Made by a program: the position numbers and the translations under genes
NCBI RefSeq assembly: GCF_029674545.1
Contig: NZ_CP121354.1
Coordinates: 1,178,001 to 1,242,000 of the forward strand
Direction: 5' to 3'
DNA: 64,000 bases
Origin: Mesorhizobium sp. WSM4904
GTDB taxonomy: Bacteria > Pseudomonadota > Alphaproteobacteria > Rhizobiales > Rhizobiaceae
Notes under the pieces: model-generated
Databases searched by the model: none
Seen by the model: the letters and a program-made list of their open reading frames with translations, nothing else
What the model was told of the DNA's origin: nothing
Shown here: in pieces, positions 14,930-46,337 of the stretch
Numbering within the stretch: position 1 is the first letter of the stretch
Layout of the letters: each line of letters begins with the position of its first letter

Positions 14930-16369
14930 GTGGGCTCTAAATTCGAAAAACTAAATAAGTTGCGTGACTCACTGCGAGAATCCAACCACGATTTTCGGGC
15001 GAGCACTCAGCTATTCAACAGCCTGGACCCTGCCAAGATCGACGGCGACCTGGATGTCATTAACCGCGGAAAGCAGCGCGGCGAGGTGAACCAACCCCCG
15101 AAAACGGCAAAGAATCTCGACGATGTCGAACATGCCATCGTGGAACGCGTTGAGGATGAGAAGAAGGCTGCGCATCACACTCTTGAGGACAACCTGCAAC
15201 TCCTTGGAGGTCGTCTTGCCGGCCTCGATTTCGAGGAACAATTCGGTCTAATCCGTCAGACGAATGCCGCTAGCGTTTCGGACTTCAAAGCCTCGGTCGC
15301 CGTGGGCCTCGATGAACTTCACGGCCTGAGAAGGGCCCTGAACGACGCCGAAAAAGAGCATGCATGGTTTAAGGAGAAGCACGGTCTCGTTCGTGCCGCG
15401 CGTGTGCAGCACGGTGCCGCTCACATTTTCCGGCTATCGCTTCTGCTATTTCTGTTTCTGGTCGAGACAGCGATGAACGGCAACTTCCTGGCCAAGGGCA
15501 ATGAGCAGGGATTTTTTGGTGGCATCCTTGAGGCTGCGGCATTCTCTTTCATCAACATCGGGGCGGCTTTGCTCCTGGCGGTTTTCTGCGCTCGTCTCGT
15601 CACCCATCGGTCGTTTTTCGTAAAATTCGTTGGGATCATTTCAATCCTTTTCTATATCGGCTTGGCGATTTCGATAAACTTGGCGCTAGCGCACTACCGT
15701 GAGGTCAGCGGCTCGCTCGCTGACGGCGCCGGCGCTGAGGTCATCCGTAATATGCTCGCCAATCCAGCGGGTCTCACGGACATCAAGTCCTGGTTGCTGT
15801 TTGCGATCGGCCTGATGTTTTCGCTTTTCGCTTTTATCGACGGCTGGTTCGTGCTCGACCCTTACCCAGGCTACACTGGCGTTGAAAATCGGCTCGTTCG
15901 ACGGCGCGATGACTACATCGATCGAAAGAAGGAACTGATCGAAGAGCTGCAGGATGTCCGCGACGACCACAACGAAAAAGTGGAGGAAATCGTCAAGCAG
16001 CTTGGTAGTCGCCGGCGCGAGCACCGCGCGATTGTCGATCATCGATCGAGGCTTCTGGCTCTTTTTGCGCAGCATCAAGACCAATTGGAGCGAGCCTGCA
16101 ATCAGCTTTTGTCGATGTATCGGGAAGCCAACATCCAGGCGAGGACCGAGCCGGCGCCCAAGCATTTCGGAACGCCCTACAAACTTGATCGCATCAAGCC
16201 ATACGTCACCGGCGAGCGGGAGTGGAATGAGGGAGATGTTGGCGCATCAATTCGCCAGGCGCAGGAGGAACTCAACGAGCAGGTTCGTCTGATTGGTCAG
16301 GAATGCGAACGGGGAATTGAGCAGTACCGAGATCTTGATAAGCTTCACCCGGACAGCGTGAATGTCTAG
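14930..16369 (+). CDS. Four-helix membrane protein with flanking coiled coils, first gene of a stator-like operon
   Basis: The 479-residue product starts at GTG 14930 (GSKFEKLNKLRDSLRESN). Residues 1-150 are charged and helical. Four membrane helices follow: about 166-185 (LSLLLFLFLVETAMNG), 197-222, 228-255 (FVGIISILFYIGLAISINLA) and 287-309 (LLFAIGLMFSLFAFIDGWF). A second coiled-coil region spans 325-420. No enzymatic motif is visible. The stop overlaps the start of the next gene by eight bases, so the genes are translationally coupled. By position and topology it may be a membrane scaffold for the stator-like pair downstream; this is inference. Confidence 0.75.
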   Translation: MGSKFEKLNKLRDSLRESNHDFRASTQLFNSLDPAKIDGDLDVINRGKQRGEVNQPPKTAKNLDDVEHAIVERVEDEKKAAHHTLEDNLQLLGGRLAGLDFEEQFGLIRQTNAASVSDFKASVAVGLDELHGLRRALNDAEKEHAWFKEKHGLVRAARVQHGAAHIFRLSLLLFLFLVETAMNGNFLAKGNEQGFFGGILEAAAFSFINIGAALLLAVFCARLVTHRSFFVKFVGIISILFYIGLAISINLALAHYREVSGSLADGAGAEVIRNMLANPAGLTDIKSWLLFAIGLMFSLFAFIDGWFVLDPYPGYTGVENRLVRRRDDYIDRKKELIEELQDVRDDHNEKVEEIVKQLGSRRREHRAIVDHRSRLLALFAQHQDQLERACNQLLSMYREANIQARTEPAPKHFGTPYKLDRIKPYVTGEREWNEGDVGASIRQAQEELNEQVRLIGQECERGIEQYRDLDKLHPDSVNV

Positions 16370-17180
16370 GCGAACCCGCAGACGCAAGAAAGGCAATGCG
16401 GGTACCATTGCCGCGGCCATTGCCCTTGGTGTGCTATCCGTTGCGATGTTGGCCGGCTTCGGCTGGATGTGGACCAGGTCTGGCAATGGCCATATCGACG
16501 CCAACACGAATTGCCCATTGGACGGACCCTCCAGCCTGACCGCCGTCCTCATCGACGCCACTGATCCAATTTCGGCAACGACGATGGCTGATCTCAAGAA
16601 CGAGTTCCGAAAGACCATTGGGCAGGTCGAGCCGGGTGGGTATGTGAGGATTTATACCCTGAGCTCGGCGCCTGGTGAGCTGACGGTGATGTTCGATGGA
16701 TGCAATCCCGGTGATGGGTCGACCGTCGATAGTTGGACCAACAATCCTGCGCGGCGTCAAAAGAAGTGGGAAAACGCCTTCGGCGATCCTTTGAACAAAC
16801 TTCCCGATGAAATCCCGAATGCGGCTTCCGCGAGCCAATCTCCGATCATGGCTGGAATTCAGAAAATCAAGCTGTCGCTCTTCGATAGCAGCTTGGCCAA
16901 ACAGGGCAGTCCCAAGCGATTGGTGGTCGCCTCTGACATGATCGAGCATACGACGATTTACTCGCAGTACCGATCGGGACTGGATTACCAAAAATACCTC
17001 AACAGCGCCGCCGACCGCACATATGGGACGTCGCTGGATGGGGTGGGCATCACAATTCTTTATATCGATCGGGCAAAGAAGCCATTTCAGACCCTGGATC
17101 ACGCGGAGTTCTGGACACATTGGGTCCAGAACCATCACGGCGAGTTCGAAAAGCTGGTTGGCTTGGATGGGTTAAACTGA
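16362..17180 (+). CDS. Membrane-anchored periplasmic protein with von Willebrand A-like fold
   Basis: The 272-residue protein has an Arg/Lys-rich start (MSRRTRRRKKGNAG) and one membrane helix at about 14-36, so the bulk should be periplasmic. The beta-strand and acidic loop SLTAVLIDATDPIS (about 56-70) and the later RLVVASDMIEHT resemble strands 1 and 4 of a VWA/Rossmann-type domain, with Asp residues where a metal site could be. ATGA-type coupling joins it to the following stator-like gene. The fold assignment is from the strand pattern only. Confidence 0.65.
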   Translation: MSRRTRRRKKGNAGTIAAAIALGVLSVAMLAGFGWMWTRSGNGHIDANTNCPLDGPSSLTAVLIDATDPISATTMADLKNEFRKTIGQVEPGGYVRIYTLSSAPGELTVMFDGCNPGDGSTVDSWTNNPARRQKKWENAFGDPLNKLPDEIPNAASASQSPIMAGIQKIKLSLFDSSLAKQGSPKRLVVASDMIEHTTIYSQYRSGLDYQKYLNSAADRTYGTSLDGVGITILYIDRAKKPFQTLDHAEFWTHWVQNHHGEFEKLVGLDGLN

Positions 17181-18496
17181 TGGCGAGAGCGCACGACAAA
17201 CCTTTGCTGGATCATCCACGTCTGCCGGTCGTGGTTTTCGCGGCATTGACACTCGGCGGGTGTGTATTCATCGCCATTGCAAAACTCTCAGGCGTAAATC
17301 CGATCGTCGCGGCGGTAGCACCGGCCTGCCTGATGTTTTTCTATCTCGGGGTTTCGATCTTTGCTGGAAAGCTACAACTGCACGACGAGCAGACCGGCGA
17401 TAACCTCTACTATATGGGCTTCCTGTTCACCCTGACGAGCCTTGGGGTCTCGCTGTTTCAGTTTGGAACGGAAGGCTCAACCGACACGATCGTCCAAAAT
17501 TTTGGCATCGCGATCACGTCGACGATCACCGGTATTGCTCTGAGGGTTTTCTACAATCAGATGCGGCGCGATCCCGCGGACATTGAGCGAACGGCGAGGC
17601 ACGAACTTGCCGACATGACACGGCGTGTAAGAGCCGAGATGGAAAGCGTAACCAGGGAGTTCGCCGACTTTCGTCGTGTCAGCCATCAAATGCTCGAAGA
17701 GGGCTTTGCAGAGATTGCCGAGCAAGCGGCACGCAATGGGGAGCACATTCGATCTGCCCTGGACAATATTGCCATGGAATCGATCAAGCCTGTCCAAGAG
17801 GCGTCTGCCAAGCTCAGTGACGCGTTGCAGCACAATTTCGGGCAAGTCGAAACCCAGTTTGCTTCGATAGCGAACCGCGTTGGAGCTGCAGCGGATTTGC
17901 TGGATAAAGCCAACAGCTCGATGTCCAACTCTGTTGGAAAGCTCGGTAATCAAGCCGACAATATGGCTGCCAAGCTGGAAAAGGTGGTTGTTCCTGATGA
18001 GGTGCTGAAGAACGATCTGGCGCCGATGGTCAAGCTCCTGGGTAATGCTGTCGCACAATATGCGATAAAAACCGAAACAGCCTCGCAAGAGCAGCAAACG
18101 CGGATGACCGGTCTTGCCGACGCAGTGATCAAGGTGGCGACTGGAGTGGAGAGAGCGGCAGCGGCCGCAGAAAAGACCGCAGAAACTGTCCAAGCGCAGC
18201 AGCGTTTGACTGAGGAGTTCATGGCTGTGATGCAGAAACACAGCAATGAAACACGCGGCCTCGTCGCAACCCTTACACAACATAGCCTCCCGGCCGTGCG
18301 CACTCCCCAGCCTCTGAGCAATGCGATAGCGAACGATGTCGAGCGAGTGGCGGCACCTTCCACTGTTGCCTCCCCTGTGGAGACGCCAATCAAGGTTTCG
18401 GATGACACGGAGGGCGACACCTTCCGATCGTTAAGCAGTCCGGCGGAGGTGGAGAAGGGTGAACCGCCAAAGAGAGCAAGTTGGTGGGGCAGGTGA
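17180..18496 (+). CDS. MotA/TolQ/ZorA-like proton-channel protein with long coiled-coil tail
   Basis: The 438-residue product has membrane helices near 13-35, 38-61, 75-95 and 103-127, the last two separated by a loop as in MotA/ExbB/TolQ stators. A cytoplasmic helical tail of nearly 300 residues follows, rich in heptads (ERTARHELADMTRRVRAEME, later ATGVERAAAAAEKTAE). ZorA of the Zorya anti-phage system has the same plan, a stator plus a long intracellular tail, though I see no close motif match. Start ATG 17180 overlaps the previous stop by one base, and its own stop overlaps the next start. Predicted to pair with the following OmpA/MotB-like protein. Confidence 0.7.
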   Translation: MARAHDKPLLDHPRLPVVVFAALTLGGCVFIAIAKLSGVNPIVAAVAPACLMFFYLGVSIFAGKLQLHDEQTGDNLYYMGFLFTLTSLGVSLFQFGTEGSTDTIVQNFGIAITSTITGIALRVFYNQMRRDPADIERTARHELADMTRRVRAEMESVTREFADFRRVSHQMLEEGFAEIAEQAARNGEHIRSALDNIAMESIKPVQEASAKLSDALQHNFGQVETQFASIANRVGAAADLLDKANSSMSNSVGKLGNQADNMAAKLEKVVVPDEVLKNDLAPMVKLLGNAVAQYAIKTETASQEQQTRMTGLADAVIKVATGVERAAAAAEKTAETVQAQQRLTEEFMAVMQKHSNETRGLVATLTQHSLPAVRTPQPLSNAIANDVERVAAPSTVASPVETPIKVSDDTEGDTFRSLSSPAEVEKGEPPKRASWWGR

Positions 18497-19542
18497 GTGA
18501 GGTTAGCGGAACAGCCATTACGTTTGAGCGCAAGGGCTATGGCCGCGGCCTGATACTCGGCCTGACGATGGCTGAGACGATGCTGCTTCTCGTTTTCTGC
18601 CTTTTGCTTGCTGCAGGCGCGCTCATCGCCAAGACAAAGAAAGAGGCTGCGGCAGCGCAGAAGATTGCGCAGTCCCTCAATGAGAACGCTCGCAAGCTTG
18701 ACGAGGAAAACAAGCGGTTGCTGGCTCAGCTGAATGCCATGGTCAAGCCTGCAAGTCGACGCAATGTACCAGATCAAGAATGGCGTGAATTGGTCCGGGC
18801 CAAAGAGGCCGCAGAGGCAATCAAAAAAGTGGGACTGACCCTTGAGGAAGCGGTGAAAAGCGCGCCGGCCGCCAAAGTCCTCTCTGACAACGACGTCGAC
18901 GTTGATCAGGCCAAAGCCATGATCGAGAAGATGAAGGTTCTGCGCGAGCTCGGCTACGTTGGCACGGGCAAGACGTCCAAGGATCTTGCTGACGCACTGA
19001 AGAAGGCAAGGAACGAGGCCTCTGCTGACAAGCCACACGATTGGCCACCGATCATCAGTCTTAGCGAGCTCGATGGCTATAATTTCGATACTGGAAGTGC
19101 GGAGCTTTCCGGTGGCTTCAAAACGAAGTTGCGGCAGATGTCGAAGACCATTGCTGGAATTGCAACTTCCTATGGTGTGGACGTCATTGAGGTGATTGGC
19201 CACACGGACGAGCAGGCGATGTCCGGTGACTCATCGAATATGGACAGAGGCCTTCAGCCCGTACTGGCGCGCAAGATGGACATTGGCACACTCCATCCTG
19301 CCGACAATGCCGGGCTTGGATTAGCGCGAGCGATCTCCGTCACAGGCATCCTGCGCGATATGCCGGAACTGAAAGGCTTCACCATCCTGCCAATGTCCGG
19401 CGGCCAGTTGATATTGCCTGGCGACCGGCTCACCGACGGCGCACAGGCCGGCGACGTCAAGGCGAGGAGGCGAATTGAGATCAGGGTCAGGCAACGTTCG
19501 CGAGAGACAGATATTGGACTGGTTCCGGTACCAAAGTTGTGA
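18493..19542 (+). CDS. MotB/ZorB-like protein: one membrane helix plus OmpA-like domain
   Basis: GTG 18493 overlaps the upstream stop (GTGA); a TTG at 18481 is also possible. The 349-residue product has one N-terminal membrane helix (AETMLLLVFCLLLAAGALIA) with a Glu at its start, where MotB-type proteins carry the ion-binding Asp. A helical linker (about 45-190) leads to a C-terminal OmpA-like peptidoglycan-binding domain: YNFDTGSAELS, IEVIGHTDEQ, LGLARAISVTGILR and RRIEIRVRQ. This is the architecture of MotB and ZorB. With the upstream channel protein it should form an energised complex across the inner membrane bound to the cell wall. Confidence 0.8.
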   Translation: MSEVSGTAITFERKGYGRGLILGLTMAETMLLLVFCLLLAAGALIAKTKKEAAAAQKIAQSLNENARKLDEENKRLLAQLNAMVKPASRRNVPDQEWRELVRAKEAAEAIKKVGLTLEEAVKSAPAAKVLSDNDVDVDQAKAMIEKMKVLRELGYVGTGKTSKDLADALKKARNEASADKPHDWPPIISLSELDGYNFDTGSAELSGGFKTKLRQMSKTIAGIATSYGVDVIEVIGHTDEQAMSGDSSNMDRGLQPVLARKMDIGTLHPADNAGLGLARAISVTGILRDMPELKGFTILPMSGGQLILPGDRLTDGAQAGDVKARRRIEIRVRQRSRETDIGLVPVPKL

Positions 19543-19592
19543 GGCGAACTGCCCTTGGGTTTCGCTCACAGGGCTTGGGGGGGATTGCGGGG

Positions 19593-20738
19593 ATGGGGTT
19601 TTACGTTCGAAAATCGATTAGTGCGGGACCTTTCCGCTTTAACTTCTCGTCTGGCGGGGTTGGCGCGTCCGTTGGCGTGCAAGGTCTTCGTATCGGGACT
19701 GGCCCACGAGGGCATTATATTCATGCAGGCGTCGGCGGTCTCTACTACCGAGGCACTTTGGGAAAGCGCAGCGCCAAGCAGACGCTGCAACTGTCTGAAT
19801 TCCCATCTGGGCCAAAGCCCCATCCAACATCCTCACCCGTGGAATATGTCAGCGGTGGCGTCGTGATGAGAGAAATCGAGTCCGCCGATGTGATCGAGAT
19901 GCGTGATGAGACATTTGCCAATGTGCTTGATGAAATCAATGCGAGGCAATCGCAGACGCGAATGTCGCTCATCCTGGCCGTGCTGTTTGGGATCGCCGGA
20001 TTGATCGCAGGCGCAATGCTGGGAGGTGGGGTGGCGCTGATCGGTATTGCTGCCTTTTTGCCGGGCATGCTTATTGGCAACTGGTTGGACAGCTACCGCC
20101 GGGTGAGCGTGCTCTACTATGATTTGGAGCAGGACGCGGAGGCGGCCTACGGGCGACTTGTCGCCGCCTTTGACACGCTCACACGCTGCGCGGCGAGTTG
20201 GCATGTCGCGGCTGGTGGCAAGATAGAGGATCTGACGACTTGGAAGCGCAATGCGGGAGCCACGATGTTGGTCGATAAAAAGTCGACGACGCTCCAAGCT
20301 TCCTTGCCGACGGTTGTTCGCAGCAATGTCACACCACCGTCGATACACGTCGGCCGGCAAATCCTTTATTTCATGCCAGACATGATTTTGGTGAAGGACG
20401 GAAACCAGTACGGTGCCGTTGGGTATGGAGACCTCAGGACGCAATTTGCCCCCAGCAATTTTATTGAGACCGGCAAAGTTCCATCTGATGCTGAGATCGT
20501 GAGCTATACCTGGGCTCATCCCAATAAGAATGGCGGACCCGACAAACGCTTCAGAGATAATCGGCAGATCCCTGTCTGTCGCTACGAAGCCTTGCGGTTT
20601 TCTAGCCCATCCGGGCTCAACGAGCTGGTGGAATTTTCCAAGACAAACGTCAGCCAGCCCTTTTGCCAGGCTCTATTGGCACTCGCGCAAATGCACCGAA
20701 ACGCTGGTGGCCAGTCCGGCTTGCTGAAAGCGCGCTAA
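19593..20738 (+). CDS. DUF4236 domain protein with two membrane helices
   Basis: ATG 19593 starts the DUF4236 motif MGFYVRKSISAGPFRFNFSS followed by GVGASVGVQGLRIGTGPRG and GGLYYRGTL, a glycine-rich beta domain of unknown function. Two adjacent hydrophobic segments lie near residues 128-170 (LILAVLFGIAGLIAGAMLGG, IGIAAFLPGMLIGNWL), and the C-terminal half is soluble. It follows the MotB-like gene by 50 bases on the same strand, so it is probably the last gene of that operon. The next gene is convergent. Confidence 0.8.
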   Translation: MGFYVRKSISAGPFRFNFSSGGVGASVGVQGLRIGTGPRGHYIHAGVGGLYYRGTLGKRSAKQTLQLSEFPSGPKPHPTSSPVEYVSGGVVMREIESADVIEMRDETFANVLDEINARQSQTRMSLILAVLFGIAGLIAGAMLGGGVALIGIAAFLPGMLIGNWLDSYRRVSVLYYDLEQDAEAAYGRLVAAFDTLTRCAASWHVAAGGKIEDLTTWKRNAGATMLVDKKSTTLQASLPTVVRSNVTPPSIHVGRQILYFMPDMILVKDGNQYGAVGYGDLRTQFAPSNFIETGKVPSDAEIVSYTWAHPNKNGGPDKRFRDNRQIPVCRYEALRFSSPSGLNELVEFSKTNVSQPFCQALLALAQMHRNAGGQSGLLKAR

Positions 20739-20751
20739 GGAATTGGCTTGG

Positions 20752-21519
20752 TCAGCAAATGCCTTCGCACGGAATTCCGTCGCCGTCCCGGTCCAATTTG
20801 GGTCCCCAGCTACAGTTATTGAGATACCAGCGCGCCTCATCGCATGAGGAGATTTGCTTACAATAGCGACGCGGTTGACACGAATAGCTCTGAGCTATTT
20901 GGCGACGGCCTGTAAGGCCGTAGGATGTGTCATTACCGGGTTTATTGTTGGCTGCATGTGTTGCTCGCCAATCCCAAGGGGCTGTGAAAGTGCCAACCCA
21001 GATGCCAATCTTGGCCCTTTGGGCATCTGCCTGTTGTGACGCGTAACTACCATGGCTGTATCGAGGCCAATCCAGGGCATAACCCTGTTCGACCATCCAA
21101 GACGCAATGCTAGCACCGTCCGCCCGCTGACAATCACCAACGAAGCGGTTGTAACGATCCCACGAAACAAAGTTGCACTGGATGGGTCGGGATTGACTGA
21201 GGAAGATGTCCAGTGCTTCTGCGGATTTGCGGCCGCATGGGTATTCTTGCCCGCTTGCGTCGCTGCAGTTTTGGCTGCTTTCAGGTGCGTCGATGCCATT
21301 GAAACGAATACGCTGTCCGTGGATCTCGATCGTGTCCCCGTCAACGATGGACGCTACGCCGACGATAGGCTTCGGTTTTGACCCGAGTGCGCTTGCTGTA
21401 TTGGGTCCCGCGATCTGGTTGCCCCACCCTGTAAAGTAGGAGGTGACATAAGCGCCCACTGCTAGCGTGATCACCAGGATCGCGGCTAATGATTTATGTG
21501 AAAAGAAACGCTTGCGCAT
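20752..21519 (-). CDS. Thermonuclease-family (SNase) protein with C-terminal excalibur motif, exported
   Basis: From ATG 21519 (MRKRFFSHKSLAAILVITLAV) the product is 255 residues with an N-terminal signal or anchor helix. The staphylococcal-nuclease fold follows (VDGDTIEIHGQRIRFNGIDAPES, then DRYNRFVGDCQ and WMVEQGYALDWPRYS), with the usual Asp/Arg active-site positions. The end carries an excalibur calcium-binding-type motif (DRDGDGIPCEGIC). It likely degrades nucleic acid outside the inner membrane. The open frame continues upstream into the next gene but without domain content. It is convergent with the DUF4236 gene, 13 bp apart. Confidence 0.88.
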   Translation of the reverse strand: MRKRFFSHKSLAAILVITLAVGAYVTSYFTGWGNQIAGPNTASALGSKPKPIVGVASIVDGDTIEIHGQRIRFNGIDAPESSQNCSDASGQEYPCGRKSAEALDIFLSQSRPIQCNFVSWDRYNRFVGDCQRADGASIASWMVEQGYALDWPRYSHGSYASQQADAQRAKIGIWVGTFTAPWDWRATHAANNKPGNDTSYGLTGRRQIAQSYSCQPRRYCKQISSCDEARWYLNNCSWGPKLDRDGDGIPCEGIC

Positions 21520-22666: not shown

Positions 22667-25600
22667 TTGGACGTAAAACAGTCAGTCTTCCAAAGCGATC
22701 TCCCTCTAAAGGAGAAACTCGAGCGCGCCAGGATGGAGTTGCTCGATCTTTCCGCCCGCAATCGACTTTTGAATGTGCCGCGGTTTTCCAAGAGCGCGAA
22801 GACGATCGATATCGTCGATGAGAAGTCGTCCGAAATTTATCGATTGCTGGTGACCGAAGGAAAGGCTTTTACCTTCCTGGCCGGCAAGCCCGATAGGCCG
22901 AAAGCGGGCCAGGATGAAAGCAGCCCTCCAGACGAAGAGATCGACTATTCCCCCGTCGCTCTCGCCCAACCAGAGGACGATGGAGTCGATAACAGAGGGA
23001 TATCCGCGCGGCACTCGGACACCAAGCTGCAGACGCGTATGACCCCAACTGGGCTGCAGCGGCGGCTCCTTGATCTCTACCATGATGCCCGCACACTCGA
23101 GGAAGAGCAGGGCGTCAATATCCTCTTTCTGGCCCTTGGAATGCTGAAGTGGATTGACCCGAACAACAAAGAGAACATCCGTCAGGCCCCCCTCATTTTG
23201 GTGCCGGTTCGGCTTGAGCGAGGGGCCGCTGGAGAAAAATTCCGCCTACGAGCCCGGCCGGAAGATCTTACCGCAAACCTCTCCTTGGAACTCTATCTCG
23301 ACCGCATTCACAAGCTCGCTCTGCCGCGTTTTGAGGTGGGAGATGACTTCGACGTCTCGGCCTATCTCGATGCCGTTGCCGAAGCAATTTCGACCAAAGA
23401 GGGTTGGGAGGTGCTTCGCGACGATATGGTGCTCGGCTTCTTCTCGTTTGCGAAGTTCTTGATGTACCGTGATCTGGATCCGGATCTCTGGCCCGATGGC
23501 GCAAAGATTATCGAACAACCGAAGATCCGCTCGCTTCTTTCAGATGGTTTCGAAACACGCGAGCCGCTTATGTCGGACGACATAGCGATTGATCCGCACA
23601 TTGCGCCCGCCGAAATGTTGCATATCGTCGACAGTGACAGTTCTCAGACACTGGCGATCCATGACGTCAGAAAAGGTCGCGACCTCGTTATCCAAGGTCC
23701 GCCTGGGACAGGAAAATCGCAGACGATCGCAAACATTATTGGGTCGGCCGTTGCCGACGGAAAGACCGTGCTGTTCGTGGCCGAAAAGATGGCAGCGCTG
23801 GAGGTCGTCAAGCGACGGCTTGACACTGCTGGGGTGGGGGACGCCTGCCTTGAGCTGCATAGTAACAAGGCGAACAAGCGCATGATGCTAGAGGAGCTGC
23901 GGCGAACCTGGCAACTCGGATCGCCCAGGGGCCAGCTTCCTTCTTCCCTAACTGATCGCTTGCTGGAGGCTCGCGATAAACTCAACGCACATGCTGCACG
24001 AATGCACGTTGCGTTCGGAGCGTCCGAACTCACTCCTTATCAGGTTCTCGGCCAGCTAACCCGACTAAGGCAGGTCGGTCAGAAACCAGTGGACATCGAA
24101 CTTACGGATGCCACAAGCTGGACAACTGACGGCGTTTCGCAACGTCGCAAATTGCTCGATGAGGTCTCTCAGCGGATCAACGAGATCGGCTTGCCGATCC
24201 ACCACCCGTGGCGGGGAGTTGGCCTGGATGTCGTTCTTCCAACGACCATTGAGAGGCTCGTCCCACGCATCGCGGCGTTGCTGGACCAAGCCAAGGCACT
24301 GCACGCCAAACTGGTCGGTATCGCTGAGCGGATCAAGGCCGAGCCTCCGAAAATTCTCAGCGACAGCGGCGAGATAGAAGATCGCGCTGAGCTTCTCGCG
24401 TCCGCGCCTGGACTTCCTGCCGAGGCGCTCGTCTCGCCGGTATGGGATGAGCGTCCGAAAGACATTTCATCGCTTCTCTGGTCAGGAACGGATTTCGCCC
24501 GCAAGTCCGAGGAACTTTCGGAGCAGTTGGCGGCAACGGCTATCGACACGCCAATTGAAGGTCTCGAGACAGAGCTTGCAAAGCTTCCCTCGGAATTTCC
24601 GAAAGATGGTTTCCATCGTGCGCGACAGCTCACCATTCTGCTCCCACGCTTGAGGGAAGAAGCTGAGCGCCTGAATCAGGAACTCGGATCGGCGATATTG
24701 CCAGACACGTTGGCAGGCTTGCTCAGGCTGGCCGTGACCGGCGAGCGAGTAGCGGCAGCACCTGACGCAAGTCCGGAGGCCTTCGCAGCCACCGTTTGGG
24801 ACTCCGGACTTGAGCAGGCAGGCGACCTTGCCGACAGCGTAGCGACGCTTGAGGCTGCCAGAGCCGACCTTCAGGGCAAGGTTGTTGACGCGGCGTGGAG
24901 CACCGAGGTGGCCGCGGCGCGGCAGGCGCTCGCCACACACACGGGAATATTGAAAGCATTGAACGGCGACTACCGTCGCGCCACAGCACTTGCGCGGACT
25001 ATTGTGGTCGACCCTAGCGCGCCTGCGACGCAGATAGTTGGTCTCCTCGACCTTTTGATGAAGGGTCAGGCTGCCGCAGCAAGAGTCCGCGAAGGCGACG
25101 CTTTTGGCCGTTCCGCCTTCGGGGCAGATTGGCGTGGGGAGCGATCGGCTTCCGCGCCACTGCTCGCGCTAGTGGAGTGGATGCGGACTCTACGAGGGCT
25201 AGGCCCCGAACCTCGGATTATCGCCGGCCGGATGGCGGAACGCTCCGAGGCCGGTGCGCGTGCAGCGCGCGTTCGCAAGGTTATCGAAATCGGTCGGCCA
25301 ATTATCGAAGGTTTCTGGAACGATCTCGGGCACCTCGCGTCATCCATGCTAGGCGACGTGGCTTCCGCCGAGCGGGCCTCGCTGCAACTGATGGAAGCGA
25401 AGGCGAGCACTGTAGCTCAAGCCGATGATGCGTCACGACAGGTTCTGACTGACGTTCCGGATCTAATCACTGAGCGGGTGGAGCTACTGCGCCGACTAGG
25501 CAGACTACAAGCACTTGCTCAAGGGATCGATGCGGGAGAGAGCCTTGGCAAGTTCGTATTCGGCTCGTCGTGGCACGGTCGAGGATCCGATTGGGCCGCT

Positions 25601-28252
25601 CTCACGCAAGCCGAGCTTTGGCTGAAAGAAAATGGCTCGATCCGACATCTGGCTGCGCGGTTGCCTGAAAGAATCGAGATCGCAAACTCGGCACGTTCAG
25701 CACGTGAAGCGGCCCAAGCGGCAGCGCGGGAATTGAAGGCGCTTACAGGGGATTTGAAAGCCGATGCTCCCTCCTTGTTTGGAGTAGTCGATTTTCCGGA
25801 CGTCGCGATAGGCGAGGTCGTTTCTCGGCTGCAGGGTTGGCTCGATCATCAGGAGCAGCTCTCGAAATGGGTTGCCTATGAAGAGCGATCCGAAACGGCC
25901 CGAAAGGCTGGACTGGGACAGTTGATAGACGGCCTAGCCAACGGCCAGATTACAACAGGATCGGCTCGATCAGTTTTTGATATGGCCTACTACGAACGAA
26001 TGTTTCTGGCGATGGCGACCGATGAGCCGGAGCTGGCAAGGTTCGACGGGGAACTGCATTCCAGGGCTGTACGTGACTTCGCAGATCTGGACCGCCAGCG
26101 CATCAAGGCCGGCGCCATCGAAGTTGTAACGGCTCATCACCGGAAAATTCCTTCAAGAGACGGCGGAGCTGGACCTGTCGGACTGCTTCGTTCTGAGATG
26201 GCGCGCAGACGAGGCCACATGCCCATCCGGCAATTGATGCAGAAGGCAGGCCCTGCCATCCAGGCGCTGAAGCCAGTGTTCATGATGAGCCCGCTTTCGG
26301 TGGCGCAATTCCTGTCGCCCGGCCGGATGTCCTTCGATCTGCTCGTGATGGACGAGGCGTCTCAGATCCAGCCCGTGGACGCACTTGGCTCGGTCGCCAG
26401 GGCCAGTCAGGTGGTCGTCGTTGGCGACGAACGCCAACTGCCACCCACGACATTCTTCGCGAAGATGACAGGCTCGCAGTCTGAAGATGACGAGGGTGAG
26501 GGCGCGCAGGTCGCCGACATTGAAAGCATCCTCGGCCTGTTCACGGCCCGCGGCTTGCCGCAGCGTATGCTGCGCTGGCACTACCGTAGCCGTCACCAAT
26601 CTCTAATCGCAGTATCGAACAGCCAGTTCTACGAGAACCGGCTTTTCATCGTGCCAAGCCCTTATACCCAAGAGGCAGGTATGGGGTTGCGGTTTCATCA
26701 TGTGCCGGAGGGGGTCTTCGATTCCGGCGGCACAGGAACCAATCCGGTAGAGGCGAGAGCAGTAGCGGAGGCGATCATCCGTCATGCGAAGGTGAACCCG
26801 CAAGAGACTCTAGGCGTTGCAACATTTTCGGTTAGCCAACGCCGCGCGATCCAGGATGAACTCGAAGCGCTGCGGCGACTAAATCCCGACACCGAGGAAT
26901 TCTTTCACGCTCATCCAAGCGAGCCATTCTTCGTCAAGAACCTCGAAAATGTTCAAGGCGATGAGCGCGACGTGATCATGATCTCGGTGGGGTATGCCAA
27001 GAATGCCCAGGGATACATGGCCATGCGTTTCGGCCCTCTTGGCGCGGAAGGCGGCGAGCGTCGGCTCAACGTCCTCATAAGCCGCGCCAAGCGCAGCTGC
27101 GAAGTATTCGCGTCCATCACAGACGAGGACATCGACCTGGAGCGTGGCAAAGGGAAAGGCATCTTCGCCTTCAAGCTCTTCTTGCACTACGCGAGAACAG
27201 GGCGAATTTCGCTTGCCCAAGTCACGGTTCGCGAAATGGATTCAATCTTTGTAGAACAGGTAGCCAACGCGCTGATCGAAATGGGTTATCAGGTTCATGC
27301 TCAAGTGGGCATTGCCGGCTTCTTCATCGACCTCGCAGTTGCGGATCCAGAGAGGCCAGGCCGCTATATTCTTGGCATCGAATGCGATGGCGCAGAATAT
27401 CACTCATCTCGCTCGGCCAGAGATCGAGACCGGCTTCGGCAGTCGGTTCTGGAAGACCATGGTTGGATCATCCATCGCATCTGGAGCGCTGACTGGTTCC
27501 AACGGCCTCGTGAGCAGCTGGAGCGAACCATACTAGCGATTGAGGCCGCCAGAAAAGAACTCGATGAGCGGGCCGAATTGGGGGTCCAGAGAAATCGAGC
27601 TGTAGCCGTGCAGGTTGTTACGGTCGACCGAGGCAACGTGACGGAAATCGGTCTCGAAAGCACAAACGGATCCGAGACACCCAATCGAGCCTACGAAGAG
27701 GCCGAACTAAAGCGACCGGGATCGTTCGAACTCCACGAGACGCCCAGCGGAATCATGGCCGGACTGGTCGAGCAGGTCGTGGCTACAGAAACGCCAATCC
27801 ATGTCGACGAAATAGTTTCGCGTATTCGGGACGCCTGGGGTCTGCAGCGGGCCGGTGGCAGGATTCAGGATGCAATCGAGCGGGGGGTAAGCATAGCACA
27901 GAGAGGTGGTTCAGTAGCCCGTCGAGGCAACTTCTGCTTCAAGCCAGGTGTTCCTGTTCGTCTCAGGGATCGCAGTGGGGTCGTGTCCGCTGGATTGCGC
28001 AAGCCCGAAATGATTGCGCAGGACGAGGTCGCCCAAGGCGCTATGGAAGTCGTGAAATCCAACCTCGGTGCGACAGAGGAAGAAATCGCCACAGGCGTTG
28101 CCAGGATGCTGGGCTTCAAAGCCACAAGCGCACAATTAAGGCAGCTGATTTCAGCTGGGGTCGCCGATTTGGTTGCCAAAGGAGTGTTACGGTCCCAAGA
28201 CGGCTTGTTGGTGGCCGGCGAATCCGCGAGCGAGAAATTAGCTGAAGTGTAA
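22667..28252 (+). CDS. DUF4011 / SF1 helicase / Vsr-like nuclease / DUF3320 protein
   Basis: An 1861-residue protein. Order of parts: DUF4011 at the N-terminus (about 12-300, from KLERARMELLDLSARNRLLN); SF1 Walker A near residue 343 (IQGPPGTGKSQTIANI); a long helical insertion (about 450-1150); motif II near 1222 (LLVMDEASQIQPVDALG); motifs V-VI around 1429-1465 (VQGDERDVIMISVGYA, LNVLISRAKRSCEVF); a Vsr/DUF559-like PD-(D/E)xK nuclease about 1528-1610 (GFFIDLAVADPERPGRY, GIECDGAEYHSS, DRDRLRQSVLEDHGW); and a DUF3320 tail. Start is TTG 22667 behind AAAGGGGA. Such helicase-nuclease giants occur in defence islands and are candidate anti-phage effectors. It probably acts with the YhaO/YhaN-like pair downstream. 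Confidence 0.9.
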   Translation: MDVKQSVFQSDLPLKEKLERARMELLDLSARNRLLNVPRFSKSAKTIDIVDEKSSEIYRLLVTEGKAFTFLAGKPDRPKAGQDESSPPDEEIDYSPVALAQPEDDGVDNRGISARHSDTKLQTRMTPTGLQRRLLDLYHDARTLEEEQGVNILFLALGMLKWIDPNNKENIRQAPLILVPVRLERGAAGEKFRLRARPEDLTANLSLELYLDRIHKLALPRFEVGDDFDVSAYLDAVAEAISTKEGWEVLRDDMVLGFFSFAKFLMYRDLDPDLWPDGAKIIEQPKIRSLLSDGFETREPLMSDDIAIDPHIAPAEMLHIVDSDSSQTLAIHDVRKGRDLVIQGPPGTGKSQTIANIIGSAVADGKTVLFVAEKMAALEVVKRRLDTAGVGDACLELHSNKANKRMMLEELRRTWQLGSPRGQLPSSLTDRLLEARDKLNAHAARMHVAFGASELTPYQVLGQLTRLRQVGQKPVDIELTDATSWTTDGVSQRRKLLDEVSQRINEIGLPIHHPWRGVGLDVVLPTTIERLVPRIAALLDQAKALHAKLVGIAERIKAEPPKILSDSGEIEDRAELLASAPGLPAEALVSPVWDERPKDISSLLWSGTDFARKSEELSEQLAATAIDTPIEGLETELAKLPSEFPKDGFHRARQLTILLPRLREEAERLNQELGSAILPDTLAGLLRLAVTGERVAAAPDASPEAFAATVWDSGLEQAGDLADSVATLEAARADLQGKVVDAAWSTEVAAARQALATHTGILKALNGDYRRATALARTIVVDPSAPATQIVGLLDLLMKGQAAAARVREGDAFGRSAFGADWRGERSASAPLLALVEWMRTLRGLGPEPRIIAGRMAERSEAGARAARVRKVIEIGRPIIEGFWNDLGHLASSMLGDVASAERASLQLMEAKASTVAQADDASRQVLTDVPDLITERVELLRRLGRLQALAQGIDAGESLGKFVFGSSWHGRGSDWAALTQAELWLKENGSIRHLAARLPERIEIANSARSAREAAQAAARELKALTGDLKADAPSLFGVVDFPDVAIGEVVSRLQGWLDHQEQLSKWVAYEERSETARKAGLGQLIDGLANGQITTGSARSVFDMAYYERMFLAMATDEPELARFDGELHSRAVRDFADLDRQRIKAGAIEVVTAHHRKIPSRDGGAGPVGLLRSEMARRRGHMPIRQLMQKAGPAIQALKPVFMMSPLSVAQFLSPGRMSFDLLVMDEASQIQPVDALGSVARASQVVVVGDERQLPPTTFFAKMTGSQSEDDEGEGAQVADIESILGLFTARGLPQRMLRWHYRSRHQSLIAVSNSQFYENRLFIVPSPYTQEAGMGLRFHHVPEGVFDSGGTGTNPVEARAVAEAIIRHAKVNPQETLGVATFSVSQRRAIQDELEALRRLNPDTEEFFHAHPSEPFFVKNLENVQGDERDVIMISVGYAKNAQGYMAMRFGPLGAEGGERRLNVLISRAKRSCEVFASITDEDIDLERGKGKGIFAFKLFLHYARTGRISLAQVTVREMDSIFVEQVANALIEMGYQVHAQVGIAGFFIDLAVADPERPGRYILGIECDGAEYHSSRSARDRDRLRQSVLEDHGWIIHRIWSADWFQRPREQLERTILAIEAARKELDERAELGVQRNRAVAVQVVTVDRGNVTEIGLESTNGSETPNRAYEEAELKRPGSFELHETPSGIMAGLVEQVVATETPIHVDEIVSRIRDAWGLQRAGGRIQDAIERGVSIAQRGGSVARRGNFCFKPGVPVRLRDRSGVVSAGLRKPEMIAQDEVAQGAMEVVKSNLGATEEEIATGVARMLGFKATSAQLRQLISAGVADLVAKGVLRSQDGLLVAGESASEKLAEV

Positions 28253-28323: not shown

Positions 28324-29583
28324 ATGGCATTTCGATTCGTACACACGGCCGATATTCATCTCGACTCGCCGCTTCGTTCGCTGGCGATGCGAAATCCCGA
28401 TCTTGCCGGGCTGGTGGGCGACGCCAGCCGCCAGGCATTCGTTTCGATAGTGGATCTCTGCCTTGAGGAACGTGTGGCCGCGTTGGTCATTGCTGGCGAC
28501 CTATACGATGGCGACCAGACTTCAATGAAGACAGCGCGGTTCTTGGGCGCGCAGATGACACGCCTGCACCAGGCCGGCATCATGGTTTTCAAGATCCGCG
28601 GTAATCATGACGCCCTGTCGCGGATTTCCAAACAGCTGGTATTTCCCGACACCGTTACCATCTTTGGTGGTCGTGCTCAGTCGGTATTGCAGACAGCCGG
28701 CGGTCTGGACGTCGTATTCCATGGTTTGAGCTTTGCGAACCCTAAGGCGCCGGACAGCCTGTTAACCAAATATCCGGCGGCTCGTGAAGGGGCCGTCAAC
28801 ATAGGCATCATGCATACCAGTCTGGCTGGATCGCCAGGTCACGACGTTTACGCGCCCTGCAGCATCGCTGACTTGCACGCCCACGGTTTCGACTATTGGG
28901 CCCTCGGCCACATCCATGCTCGCCAAGTCCATCCTGGCGCCAGTGCCGTGGTGATGCCGGGAATACCGCAGGGGAGGGATATCAACGAGGCCGGTGAGAA
29001 ATCAGTCACCCTGGTGACGGTGCGCCACGACCGTTCGGTGGAGATCGAGGAACGGCTGACCAGCGTTGCGCAGTTCGAACGGGTGAGCGTCGACCTTACC
29101 GGAGCGGTGGAGTGGCCCGAGGCCGTCGCGCGTGTTCGCTTCGCACTCGAAGAGATGCGGGCAACCGTCCGATCGCGTCATGCTGTGGCTCGCATTGGCC
29201 TGACAGGAACGTCACCACTGATGTGGGCGCTGATCCGCGACAGGGACCTCCTTCTTGCCGAAGCCGAACAGGCTGCGGAACAGCTAGGCCATACGTGGGT
29301 GGAGAAGCTCGAGCTTGACCTCGCGCCGCCTCGGACGGAGACCGCCGAGGATATTGCTGATCCGATTTTCGAACTCGAGCAATCAATGCGTGCCGATGCC
29401 ACCTCGGAGGCCTTCCGCGCTGAGGCGAGGGCGTTCGTCCAAAAGATGGTCGCCGACCTTCCGGCCGACGGGCGGGATTTTGCTGGGACGGACGAAGCCG
29501 GGCTGGAACAGTTCCTCGATCAGGTGCTTTCCAAGGGCGCGGACTTGGTGACTGCCCGCCTTAAGGCCGGTGGATCGTCATGA
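28324..29583 (+). CDS. SbcD/YhaO-like DNA exonuclease (metallophosphoesterase)
   Basis: The 419-residue product shows all calcineurin-like nuclease motifs in order: FVHTADIHLD, IAGDLYDGD, IRGNHDALS, GIMHTSL and ALGHIHARQ. It is the Mre11-type subunit of an SbcCD-like complex, closest in size and layout to YhaO. Start ATG 28324 follows GGCGGAGG. Its stop overlaps the next gene start (ATGA), as is usual for subunits made in equal amounts. The position behind the DUF4011 helicase suggests shared DNA-processing or defence function. Confidence 0.92.
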   Translation: MAFRFVHTADIHLDSPLRSLAMRNPDLAGLVGDASRQAFVSIVDLCLEERVAALVIAGDLYDGDQTSMKTARFLGAQMTRLHQAGIMVFKIRGNHDALSRISKQLVFPDTVTIFGGRAQSVLQTAGGLDVVFHGLSFANPKAPDSLLTKYPAAREGAVNIGIMHTSLAGSPGHDVYAPCSIADLHAHGFDYWALGHIHARQVHPGASAVVMPGIPQGRDINEAGEKSVTLVTVRHDRSVEIEERLTSVAQFERVSVDLTGAVEWPEAVARVRFALEEMRATVRSRHAVARIGLTGTSPLMWALIRDRDLLLAEAEQAAEQLGHTWVEKLELDLAPPRTETAEDIADPIFELEQSMRADATSEAFRAEARAFVQKMVADLPADGRDFAGTDEAGLEQFLDQVLSKGADLVTARLKAGGSS

Positions 29584-32500
29584 GGTTGCGGCGCCTTGAC
29601 CTCATTCGTTATGGAAAGTTCACCGATCGTTCGATCGACTTCGGACCCAAACCGGAATCCGGACCTGATCTGCATATCGTGTTTGGCCTGAATGAGGCCG
29701 GCAAATCGACTGCGCTTTCGGCCTATCTAGACTTGCTGTTCGGCATCGAGGAACGGAGCCGCTACAACTTCCTGCACGAGTACAGTGCCATGCGCATCGG
29801 CGGGGTGCTGGAACTGGCCGGCTCCGAACACACGTTCACGCGTACGAAACAGCGCAGTAATTCGCTATTGAATGCGACGGGCCAACCGGTAAGCGAGGTG
29901 GCGATCACGGCGCATCTCGCCGGTCTGTCGCGCGACGCCTACACGACGATGTTCTCACTCGATGACGAGACGTTGGAAGCCGGCGGAAAATCTATCCTGG
30001 AGTCGCGGGGCGACCTCGGCAAGCTTCTGTTCACGGCCAGCGCCGGTCTTGGGAACGCAAGTGATACGTTGAACGCCCTCGAGGCCGAAGCAGACGCTCT
30101 GTATCGGAAGCAGGCGCATGGAACCGAACTGGCGCTGTTGAAGAAGCGCCTTGTTGACGTAAAGTCGCGCAGGGATGCGATCGACACCCTTGCATCAACC
30201 TACGAGGGCCTGGAGGCCGAACGTCTCGATGCAGCGCAGCAGTACGGCCGAACCATCAGCGATCGGGCGGTGCTGGTGGCCAGGCTGGATACCTTTGCTC
30301 GTTACGTGCGTGCTGCGCCGATGCTGGCGGATATCCGGCGCAAGATTGCCCGGCTGGATCAGCTGCCGGACATCGCCTCCCCAGCCCGGACATCGACGGG
30401 AAGTGTCACCGAACTGATCGATGACGATGCCAGCCTCAGAACGCGGCTGTCCGCAAACATCGACGAGACCGAGCGCCTGGCGGAAAAAGTCACTGCGGTC
30501 GACGAGGACGAACCGATCCTGTCGATTTCCGAACGCATTCGCGGGCTGGCGGAGAGCAAGGTGCGCCATACCGCGGCTGGCTTTGACTTGCCCACTCGCA
30601 GGATGGAGCTGCAAATCCTCAACAACAGCGTGGCGAGCTGCCTTGCCGCCTTGGGCCGATCTTCCGAGGCGGATCCTGGCGCGCTGCTTCTGCCTGCCGT
30701 CACCGTTGGCGTCGTTCGCGCCATGGTCGAGCAGAGGTCCGGGATTGCTACCGGGATGCGTGCCGCTCGCGACGAAGCCGCGGCGGCACTCGATGCGCTG
30801 CAGGTGGCAAGGCAGCGGGTCGGCGAGGAAAGGGCGGTGCCCGAACCTGCCAGGGCAAGGCTGGGCTCGGCTTTGTCGAAAGCGCGAGCAAGCGGACACC
30901 AGGCAGAGATTAGGACGGCTCGCGAGGCGGAAGATGCGGGAACAATCCGATGGAAGGCGGCGCTCGCGCGCTTGCGTCCATGGAACGGAGATGCCCTCGC
31001 TCTCGCCAACGTCGCGGTTCCGAGCGCCGGGCAGATTGCCGCCTGGAAGACGGTAGCGTCAGAACTGGCAAGGAACACCGCCGTACTTGCCGAACGCCTT
31101 GCTGAATACGAGGGCAACCATGCCATGCTCGCCGCACGATTGGATGCCCTTCGTGCCTCGGGCGACATTGTCGACGATGAAGCGGCTACCGCCATCCGCC
31201 GAGTTCGCGATGATGCGTGGGCAACGCACCGCGCAGCGCTGACCGGTGACACCGCTGACGACTTCGCCGTGGCATTGGCGCGCGATGACATTGCCAGCGC
31301 AGGCCGGCTGGCCGGCGCGGCGGATCTGGCTGAGATCCGGGCAACTACGCGCGAGCTGGCCGAGGCCGCGGCCAACCTGTCACGCAACGGCATCCAACGC
31401 ACACAGCTCGGCAAGGATGTGGATACCCAATTGTTGGAAATCCGCGCGGCCGCCAGGGACCTGCTCGGAGACGCCGTGGAACCTTCGTCTGAGCGCCTGA
31501 TCGAAAGGATCGAGGATCAGATCGAGGCGCGCAGCGATGCGCTCGCTGCCTGGGAGCAGATCGAACTTGCTCGCTTGAAGGCCGAGCGAGCCGCTGACGC
31601 CGGCGAGCAGATACGCTTGGAAATGAGAGCAGTGCTGGGAAGCGTCGGCATTGTATCAGAGTCCAACGACACCCTCGAAGCAATCATGGCCATCGCGGAG
31701 CCGTTTCTGGATCGGCAGCGCAAGGTGGACGCCGAGTATGCCGAGGCGCTCAGAATGGTGAGCTCCAAAGAAGAGGATCTAGCGGCACGACGGGTTGCAG
31801 TAGGTGTGGCGGAGCGTCGCGAGGAGGAATGGCTGGCCGGCATTACCGAAGCACTCAAGGGAACTTGGCTCGAAAGCGGGCTCTCCGCATCCGGCGTCGG
31901 CACTGTGCTCGATCAATTGGCCGAACTTTCAAGAAGCCTGCAGGAACGGGACGACCTGCAGCTGCGTATCGACAAGATGGAGGCCGACAGGGCCAATTTT
32001 CTGGTCGAGGTCATCGCCGTTGCGGTTGAAGCCGACGAGCCGACGAAGGATACCGACCCGGAGCAGTTGGCCATCCGCCTTGCCGAGCGCCTAGAGCGTG
32101 CCGAGCGGACACGTGAAACGAAGGCAAGCCTCGGCAACGACCTGAAGCGCCTCAAGGAGGCGCGCGACATCCTCGACACTGAGATTTTGGCACACGAACG
32201 CCGCAAGAACGAGGTGCTGGGCGTCTTTGGTGTCGCCACTCTGCCCGAGGTAGTCGAACGCGATGAGCTGTTGCGTGAGCGCGATGGCTTGCGCACCACC
32301 GTCGCCGAACTTGAGGAACGGATAGTGGCGGAGCTCGCGGTCGACGGATTCGAGCAGGCCCGCTCGATCCTGGACGCGATCGATTTCGACGGCCTCGCGG
32401 TCGAGAAGGCTGAGGGTGAGCAGCGGCTTCGCCTGTTCGATGAAACCATCCAGCAACAGCTGATCCGGCAGACGCGCGCGGCCGACAAGCTGGACGCCAT

Positions 32501-33053
32501 CGGCGGTGATAGTGCGGTTGCACGCCTGGATGCTGAACGGCGCACAACCCTGCTGGAAATCGAGGAGAAGGCCGTTCGCTACATAGAGCTGAAGCTTGGC
32601 ATCATGTCGGCTGGCAATGCTTTGCGGATCTACCGTGAGAGCCATCGCTCCGGCATGATGGCGCGCGCATCAGACGCGTTCAAGCTAATGACGCGTGGCC
32701 AGTATTCGGGGCTGACAACCCAGCCTGTAAGAGGTGGTGAGGTTCTCATTGCTGTGCAGGGTGACGGGCAATCCAAGGTCACCGAAGCGCTTTCAAAGGG
32801 TGCACGATTTCAGCTGTACCTTGCCCTAAGACTCGCCGGTTATTACGAGTTCGCGCAATTTCGGCCCTCGGTCCCATTCGTCGCCGACGACATCATGGAG
32901 ACGTTCGACCATATTCGCTCGGAGGAGGTTTTCAGGCTGTTCGGAGCGATGGCAAACACAGGTCAGGTCATCTACCTGACGCACCATAAGCATCTATGTG
33001 AAATAGCTGAGGCTGTCGTACCGGGAACGAGGATCCATCAACTCGCACAGTAA
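29580..33053 (+). CDS. SbcC/YhaN-like AAA ATPase
   Basis: The 1157-residue protein starts MRLRRLDLIRYGKFTDRSID and has a Walker A motif at about 37 (VFGLNEAGKSTALSAY). Roughly 800 residues of coiled coil follow (about 170-980), then the C-terminal lobe with the ABC signature-like LSKGARFQLYLALRLA and the Walker B-like PFVADDIMETFDHIR. No zinc hook is obvious. This is the YhaN type of Rad50-like ATPase and the partner of the upstream nuclease. Together they should bind DNA ends in an ATP-dependent way. Confidence 0.9.
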   Translation: MRLRRLDLIRYGKFTDRSIDFGPKPESGPDLHIVFGLNEAGKSTALSAYLDLLFGIEERSRYNFLHEYSAMRIGGVLELAGSEHTFTRTKQRSNSLLNATGQPVSEVAITAHLAGLSRDAYTTMFSLDDETLEAGGKSILESRGDLGKLLFTASAGLGNASDTLNALEAEADALYRKQAHGTELALLKKRLVDVKSRRDAIDTLASTYEGLEAERLDAAQQYGRTISDRAVLVARLDTFARYVRAAPMLADIRRKIARLDQLPDIASPARTSTGSVTELIDDDASLRTRLSANIDETERLAEKVTAVDEDEPILSISERIRGLAESKVRHTAAGFDLPTRRMELQILNNSVASCLAALGRSSEADPGALLLPAVTVGVVRAMVEQRSGIATGMRAARDEAAAALDALQVARQRVGEERAVPEPARARLGSALSKARASGHQAEIRTAREAEDAGTIRWKAALARLRPWNGDALALANVAVPSAGQIAAWKTVASELARNTAVLAERLAEYEGNHAMLAARLDALRASGDIVDDEAATAIRRVRDDAWATHRAALTGDTADDFAVALARDDIASAGRLAGAADLAEIRATTRELAEAAANLSRNGIQRTQLGKDVDTQLLEIRAAARDLLGDAVEPSSERLIERIEDQIEARSDALAAWEQIELARLKAERAADAGEQIRLEMRAVLGSVGIVSESNDTLEAIMAIAEPFLDRQRKVDAEYAEALRMVSSKEEDLAARRVAVGVAERREEEWLAGITEALKGTWLESGLSASGVGTVLDQLAELSRSLQERDDLQLRIDKMEADRANFLVEVIAVAVEADEPTKDTDPEQLAIRLAERLERAERTRETKASLGNDLKRLKEARDILDTEILAHERRKNEVLGVFGVATLPEVVERDELLRERDGLRTTVAELEERIVAELAVDGFEQARSILDAIDFDGLAVEKAEGEQRLRLFDETIQQQLIRQTRAADKLDAIGGDSAVARLDAERRTTLLEIEEKAVRYIELKLGIMSAGNALRIYRESHRSGMMARASDAFKLMTRGQYSGLTTQPVRGGEVLIAVQGDGQSKVTEALSKGARFQLYLALRLAGYYEFAQFRPSVPFVADDIMETFDHIRSEEVFRLFGAMANTGQVIYLTHHKHLCEIAEAVVPGTRIHQLAQ

Positions 33054-46335: not shown

Positions 46336-46337
46336 CG

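Follow-up and report, generated by a model that had tools for sequence, protein, structure and literature searches.

In the genome of Mesorhizobium sp. WSM4904 we identified a conserved four-gene cassette (g1-g4) that encodes a pair of proteins resembling the stator of the Zorya anti-phage systems, together with two unfamiliar partners, and that is repeatedly linked, and in some relatives fused, to a nuclease predicted to act on the periplasmic side of the inner membrane. The cassette lies in a stretch of 64,000 nucleotides (contig NZ_CP121354.1, positions 1,178,001 to 1,242,000; hereafter the window) and forms, with a fifth gene (g5), a run of plus-strand open reading frames (ORFs) at 14930-20738 of the window (Table 1). 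We propose that its products form a Zorya-like ion motor with a periplasmic nuclease that acts on incoming DNA, for example phage genomes, a reading that we hold about as readily as we doubt it. The Zorya kind of stator is known; what we rate as new is a Zorya-like motor-nuclease with the nuclease across the membrane and with two obligate subunits that are also new. The titles, abstract openings and passages seen of the open-licence literature contained no description of the g1-g4 operon, and the word periplasm is absent from a 2026 review of DNA-targeting defences.

The g1-g4 cassette and its motor-like pair

Five same-strand genes lie where the original prediction had placed them; each neighbouring pair overlaps, including g4 and g5, which had been left out of the chain of overlapping stops and starts. 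An alternative, longer start of g3 (TTG at 17120) is less likely. Against Mesorhizobium relatives with about 76-91% protein identity, the operon genes had nonsynonymous divergences (dN) of 0.05-0.18 and synonymous divergences (dS) of 0.7-2.1, and the more distant locus L027 gave dN values of 0.26-0.35 for g1-g4 with dS at 2.1-2.3 or saturated. Because dN is low relative to dS, the reading frames of g1-g5 are under purifying selection; this and the recurring order of g1-g4 identify them as true genes and not chance ORFs. The g3 sequence was 100% identical in named loci of Mesorhizobium strains.

The protein encoded by g3 had been called a MotA/ZorA-like channel with a cytoplasmic tail, a call tied to the presence of a MotA/ExbB fold. 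Its predicted model has four transmembrane (TM) helices (15-36, 41-61, 69-94 and 101-129) with a short link between TM2 and TM3, and both the model and hydropathy place a C-terminal cytoplasmic helical tail (132-369) after TM4. Residues T84, S87, S114 and T115 are invariant polar positions. Compared with the PDB, the predicted membrane core matched ZorA/TolQ/ExbB-like folds, with type II ZorA ranking first at an E-value of only 0.1. We rejected as proof of homology the PADLOC ZorA match of g3, which covers the tail and leaves the motor core uncovered; in a control, 42 of 61 genomes had matches to the same model, chiefly long ORFs aligned to its tail region, besides a few short ORFs that matched its membrane core. 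A g3 sequence profile searched against the PDB was also set aside, as all 60 matches listed fell in the tail region and none was a motor protein.

The partner subunit, g4, has one TM helix (about residues 27-45) and a periplasmic OmpA-like peptidoglycan-binding domain. Its periplasmic part matched the PomB profile (E 4.7e-6), in agreement with its designation as a MotB/ZorB-like OmpA protein, and the PADLOC ZorB model matched weakly (E 1.3e-3), with no single stretch passing alone. A glutamate in the TM motif GLTMAE (Glu28) is invariant, being present in each of the 37 rows aligned and in every one of the 210 database relatives whose motif could be located. Placed by this motif, Glu28 would occupy the site of the ion-carrying aspartate of MotB and ZorB. 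In the g4 ORFs of loci L214, L215 and L217 the OmpA domain gives way to a different periplasmic domain; the three have a Cys-Trp motif in common there, and Pfam gave no convincing match.

The two other members of the cassette matched no Pfam family above the cut-off and no PADLOC family. The anticipated four-helix membrane protein, g1, has TM helices at about 162-187, 195-224, 229-260 and 285-308, flanked N- and C-terminally by long helical parts predicted to be cytoplasmic; the TM region has invariant polar residues (E179, N183, N209 and N250). Comparison with solved structures gave nothing of note for g1, and a search with its fold gave no match that stood out from helical bundles. A single N-terminal TM helix anchors g2, as had been proposed, and is followed by a periplasmic domain with conserved Cys51 and Cys114 and a VWA-like order of motifs (VLID.TDP ... 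SPIM ... SDMIEHT). The VWA (MIDAS-type Rossmann) identity is a reading from this motif pattern and is weakly supported: in hhalign comparisons with five VWA sequences from this genome, motif I was aligned once (probability 9%, E 0.0036), and none of 84 g2 homologues had a Pfam domain.

Despite their unfamiliarity, g1 and g2 are obligate companions of the motor-like pair. Of 150 related genomes searched with g2, 22 matched (own genome counted), and 17 of the 18 regions taken retained the order g1-g2-g3-g4; the exception, L038, has g1 and g2 only, and the regions omitted were the own genome and G021, G029 and G081, with the same 100% match. When the GTDB species genomes were scanned with the alignment of g3, 113 relatives were confirmed, and at all 80 loci derived from the best 80 of these the four genes stand in order, with g1 and g2 both found in each, an ORF split in L060, L064 and L096, and g1 cut by the contig end in L072. 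The window, the 18 regions and these 80 make up 99 loci with repeats included (the same genome is often in both sets) and hold 82 distinct cassette sequences. The g1-g2 pair was also found without detectable g3 or g4 in L038 (8342-10716), L219, L220, L221 (a 5.8-kb contig) and L224; these pairs may represent a second type of system or have g3 and g4 genes too divergent for detection.

The survey supported the original proposal of co-occurring genes for g1-g4, but not for g5. The latter does encode a DUF4236 protein (PF14020, E 2.3e-14), and we rejected it as a core component because homologues occurred in only 22 of 115 loci: the window, L021-L026, twelve named Mesorhizobium loci and L067, L102 and L114. 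In the last three the homologue lies near the cassette, at other positions and strands and outside the operon (Table 1). Hence, g5 is accessory and the conserved unit is g1-g4.

The original prediction named universal conservation in core genomes as a sign against it, and the distribution of the cassette is patchy, not universal. Beyond the 22 of 150 relatives, the g4 alignment had matches at the level of the order in 17 of 297 genomes, spread over 13 of 122 genera, with E above 1e-5 for three of the matches. With g1, 13 of 367 genomes in the class matched; of 378 genomes from the phylum 10 did, and every one of these belongs to that class (own genome counted throughout). One cassette locus, L118, is labelled as a Flavobacteriaceae metagenome bin and may be misbinned. 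No phage record matched g1.

Table 1. Coordinates of the operon and of associated features (window positions unless a locus is named).
Feature	Position	Strand	Details
g1	14930..16369	+	GTG start; 479 amino acids
g2	16362..17180	+	ATG start; 8-nucleotide overlap with g1; 272 amino acids
g3	17180..18496	+	ATG start on g2 stop; 438 amino acids
g4	18493..19542	+	GTGA overlap with g3; 349 amino acids
g4 Glu28 codon	18574..18576	+	motif GLTMAE; from the sequence
g5	19539..20738	+	GTGA overlap with g4; DUF4236 membrane protein
SNase gene	20752..21519 (ORF to 21681, TTG)	-	likely Met start at 21519; SNase + Excalibur
Hhe/ProA-like protein	22667-28252		first 800 residues scanned
Lamassu pair LmuA + LmuB	33377-37026		PADLOC; LmuA E 1.6e-36, LmuB E 2.1e-126
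DUF4236 homologues outside Mesorhizobium	L067:5106-6194; L102:15929-17026; L114:5696-6790	varied	53-57% identity
DUF4403/familyless-protein examples	L033:13158-13886; L056:3759-5429		upstream of cassette

Nucleases beside and within the cassette

The original prediction saw two extra membrane or periplasmic genes in the place of an effector. The two genes proved unfamiliar and obligate, but a gene for a staphylococcal-type nuclease (SNase) that adjoins the cassette in the window and in many relatives had been overlooked. The window copy matched PF00565 (E 3.2e-11) and PF05901 (E 2.4e-9) and carries the motifs IRFNGIDAPE and DRYNR; it is probably a partner of the cassette and predicted to be exported or membrane-anchored. 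Profile searches found an SNase gene near the cassette in 46 of the 99 loci (31 of the 82 distinct cassettes), including 32 of the 80 g3-derived loci, every one of these within 3 kb. Given a background of 29 SNase matches in nine genomes (about 63 Mb), the chance of such proximity is ~0.3% per locus. The gene stood upstream on the same strand, upstream and divergent, downstream on the opposite strand or, once, downstream on the same strand. In a hand-made list of 43 contexts outside the R. tropici/rhizogenes clade, which are not independent events, SNase was present in 25 (at 3.2 kb in L028). In R. johnstonii 3841 the cassette (RL_RS31080-RL_RS31095) adjoins a thermonuclease gene (RL_RS31100).

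We examined 34 distinct SNase domains, three of them in fused g4 proteins, after dropping two ORFs without the core motif (L046 and L214). By rough tests, 32 of the 34 retained the R..GIDAPE-type motif, which we take to be catalytic, and a hydrophobic stretch precedes the domain in 28 of the 31 unfused proteins. Other flanking genes recurred in Mesorhizobium groups only (an Hhe-like gene in 14 loci and a type IIG restriction-modification gene in 7). A common cytoplasmic effector was set aside, with SNase alone found across groups in a comparison in which most small clusters had no family-model scan.

The connection between motor and nuclease was closest in 16 more distant g1 loci, 11 of which had all four genes (the contig of L216 stops after g3). 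A nuclease is fused to g4 in four of the 11 complete operons: g4 ends in an SNase domain, above the Pfam cut-off, in L211 (E 3.4e-13), L223 (E 2.3e-13) and L218 (E 3.5e-5), and L222 has in its place GmrSD_C (E 2.3e-11, also above the cut-off), presumably an HNH-type nuclease domain. The OmpA domain scored above the cut-off in two of these four proteins. For the SNase set, every protein in which both could be located has its nuclease core >320 residues past the TM motif. Three other distant loci (L215, L225 and L226) have a separate adjoining SNase gene, and L214 has a 78-amino acid SNase-like ORF upstream. Protein searches with one fused g4 returned 97 relatives, 24 with SNase and 27 with GmrSD_C (query included), and with another 1253 relatives, with SNase in 25 of the 120 matches listed; the queries being fused proteins, these counts show that fusions are numerous and say nothing on their frequency. 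A phmmer search of the loci in hand placed a GmrSD_C-like domain near the cassette in L222 only. That g4 can carry either of two unlike nuclease domains at one and the same end is the strongest evidence that the machine works by cutting nucleic acids on the periplasmic side.

Related systems, genomic neighbourhood and alternative readings

The cassette shares with Zorya I-III a stator-like fold (ZorA ranking first for g3), a cytoplasmic C-terminal tail, a B subunit with an acidic TM residue and a peptidoglycan-binding domain, linkage to a nuclease and patchy occurrence. It differs by the addition of the obligate g1 and g2, by an invariant glutamate in g4 where ZorB has an aspartate, and by a periplasmic nuclease that is separate or fused to the B subunit. 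As the original prediction held for ZorC/D and ZorE, PADLOC found no match to any Zorya effector (ZorC+ZorD, ZorE or ZorF+ZorG) among the window proteins and neighbours scanned, some flanking genes lying outside the scan. Because no effector was matched and the PADLOC Zorya profiles met g3 in the tail alone and g4 weakly, we did not class the cassette as Zorya. That it is nevertheless a true Zorya subtype, with a cytoplasmic effector encoded elsewhere or shared and an incidental SNase, is the least probable of the alternatives, for the fold match to ZorA and the combination of long tail and peptidoglycan domain described in the portions consulted of PMC11890865 are set against missing effector matches, obligate subunits foreign to Zorya and a nuclease fused on the periplasmic side.

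Among other motors, MotAB, ExbBD and TolQR belong to the fold family of g3, and the periplasmic domain of g4 is PomB-like, but g3 has no PF01618 match, a C-terminal tail and a short TM2-TM3 link. The portions consulted of PMC12204202 describe inner-membrane-tethered VWA proteins encoded with TolQ/MotA-like motors; these come with TolQ only, or with a TolQ + TolR pair and a TPR protein, whereas the cassette has a ZorA-like subunit with a tail, a B subunit of the OmpA type, a four-TM protein and often a nuclease. Like SNIPE, as presented in the portions consulted of PMC13190303, the cassette may place a membrane-anchored nuclease where phage DNA enters, but SNIPE is a single, motorless protein with a cytoplasmic GIY-YIG nuclease.

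The neighbourhood was expected to hold other conflict genes, and it includes an Hhe/ProA-like gene and a Lamassu pair (Table 1). Two overlapping genes directly after the former (28387-33053), by eye an SbcD-like phosphoesterase and a long SbcC-like ATPase, had no PADLOC match. Further along is a gene for a CARF6-type protein (48401-49456, PADLOC E 3.3e-220), preceded by P-loop NTPase-like and phosphoesterase-like genes (45193-48404, by eye); this cluster is possibly another uncharacterised conflict operon. Targeted scans near other cassettes identified type IIG restriction-modification (L030), Shango SngA/SngB (L058), Gabija (L053) and, in loci related to the window, Hhe/ProA-like genes. In a blind test of the largest flanking ORF from 20 of the 43 contexts against 20 random regions of cassette-bearing genomes, PADLOC matched 8 cassette flanks and 4 random regions at E<=1e-15, and 6 flanks (Orf5/HEC-06, an Hhe-like protein twice in the same context, GajA, HerA and DpdF) and 1 random region at E<1e-100.

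Several observations weigh against a defensive motor-nuclease. The link to defence islands is only suggestive, a lean and no proof, and several cassettes without SNase lie among metabolic genes. SNase is missing from the surveyed flank in 18 of the 43 contexts (the upstream side of L072 is outside the available sequence), from all 28 loci of the R. tropici/rhizogenes clade and from the distant loci L212, L213 and L217. Furthermore, the fold evidence for g3 is one predicted model, whose motor scores in VIA were equalled or exceeded by designed helical bundles; g3 had no PF01618 match at E 0.01, while four other genes of the genome did, and hhalign aligned it to none of a cleaned set of 13 TolQ/ExbB sequences. 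Of the original proposal of a Zorya-like envelope defence operon, the ZorA/ZorB-like stator pair with its unfamiliar partners beside conflict genes stands; the defence role is one that we infer, and one Rhizobium clade has the cassette at a common site surrounded by ordinary genes.

The alternative that best survives, although we consider it unlikely, is a Tol/Ton-like motor for envelope maintenance, in which g1-g4 couple ion flow to work on the peptidoglycan or outer membrane and the nuclease has a secondary role in scavenging or clean-up. The 28 loci of the R. tropici/rhizogenes clade, which lack SNase, share one neighbourhood, apparently inherited vertically, in which genes for an ABC-F-type ATPase and a ketopantoate reductase flank the cassette, and a penicillin-binding protein gene adjoins the cassette in R. 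johnstonii 3841; VWA proteins with TolQ-like motors are also proposed as force transducers in the portions consulted of PMC12204202. None of the genes adjoining the cassette in the loci inspected was flagellar, TonB or Tol. Patchy presence among relatives and in the class argues against a maintenance motor, which would also hardly account for two unlike nuclease domains fused to the same subunit. Immediately upstream of the cassette in the R. tropici clade, on the same strand, is a gene for a protein of ~640 amino acids (L087:5563-7518 and 15 other loci; cluster c11), the L087 copy of which matched no Pfam or PADLOC family. In one Mesorhizobium group (7 of 7 loci, three genomes counted twice) a DUF4403 protein and a familyless protein of 216-243 amino acids are encoded upstream of the cassette.

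A barrier to plasmid or transforming DNA, with the nuclease destroying DNA during conjugation or uptake, would fit a nuclease on the periplasmic side and the 24 plasmid records that encode g3 relatives (both of the two inspected carry the full cassette). We regard it as improbable as a substitute for a phage target: conjugating DNA is thought to travel inside a channel, and the known systems near cassettes are mostly anti-phage.

A proposed motor coupled to a periplasmic nuclease

In the Zorya-like motor-nuclease that we propose, five g3 subunits around two g4 subunits would form the expected 5:2 ion-driven stator, with the cytoplasmic g3 tails bundled, Glu28 of g4 carrying the ion and the OmpA domain of g4 gripping the peptidoglycan. 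The obligate partners g1 and g2 would most likely serve as a sensor or gate plus an adaptor. The effector would be the periplasmic nuclease, either a separate exported SNase or an SNase or GmrSD_C/HNH domain fused to the C-terminus of g4. In this scheme the genes and their order, the motor-like fold of g3 (from one model), the invariant glutamate and the linkage and fusion of nucleases come from the computations; the 5:2 assembly, the sensing, DNA as the target and the defensive role are inferred. In ZorAB, according to the portions consulted of two reports, disturbance of the envelope leads the B subunit to engage peptidoglycan and opens ion flow (PMC11890865; PMC12904381). Similarly, a phage or other source of DNA that disturbs the envelope may cause g4 to bind peptidoglycan and ions to flow, and the motor would then place or activate the nuclease where DNA crosses the periplasm. 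Because the cutting domain shares the periplasmic part of g4, the simplest scheme is that the nuclease is positioned or activated locally, where the envelope is breached. More tentatively, the motor could be rotary and turn the g4 dimer upon envelope breach, bringing the tethered nuclease (SNase or HNH) to passing DNA; incoming genomes would then be cut on their way to the cytoplasm, with self and non-self told apart by compartment alone.

If this reading is correct, the cassette would encode a machine that serves immunity or DNA exclusion by coupling a motor of the flagellar type to a nuclease located outside the cytoplasm. Such a machine would need no check of sequence or modification, because the cell's own DNA is absent from the compartment of the nuclease. 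It would also provide a natural experiment for Zorya research: a similar stator logic with the effector across the membrane and two extra obligate subunits. The versions in which g4 and nuclease are fused make the coupling of motor and nuclease directly testable, and the cassette occurs in a tractable symbiont, R. johnstonii 3841.

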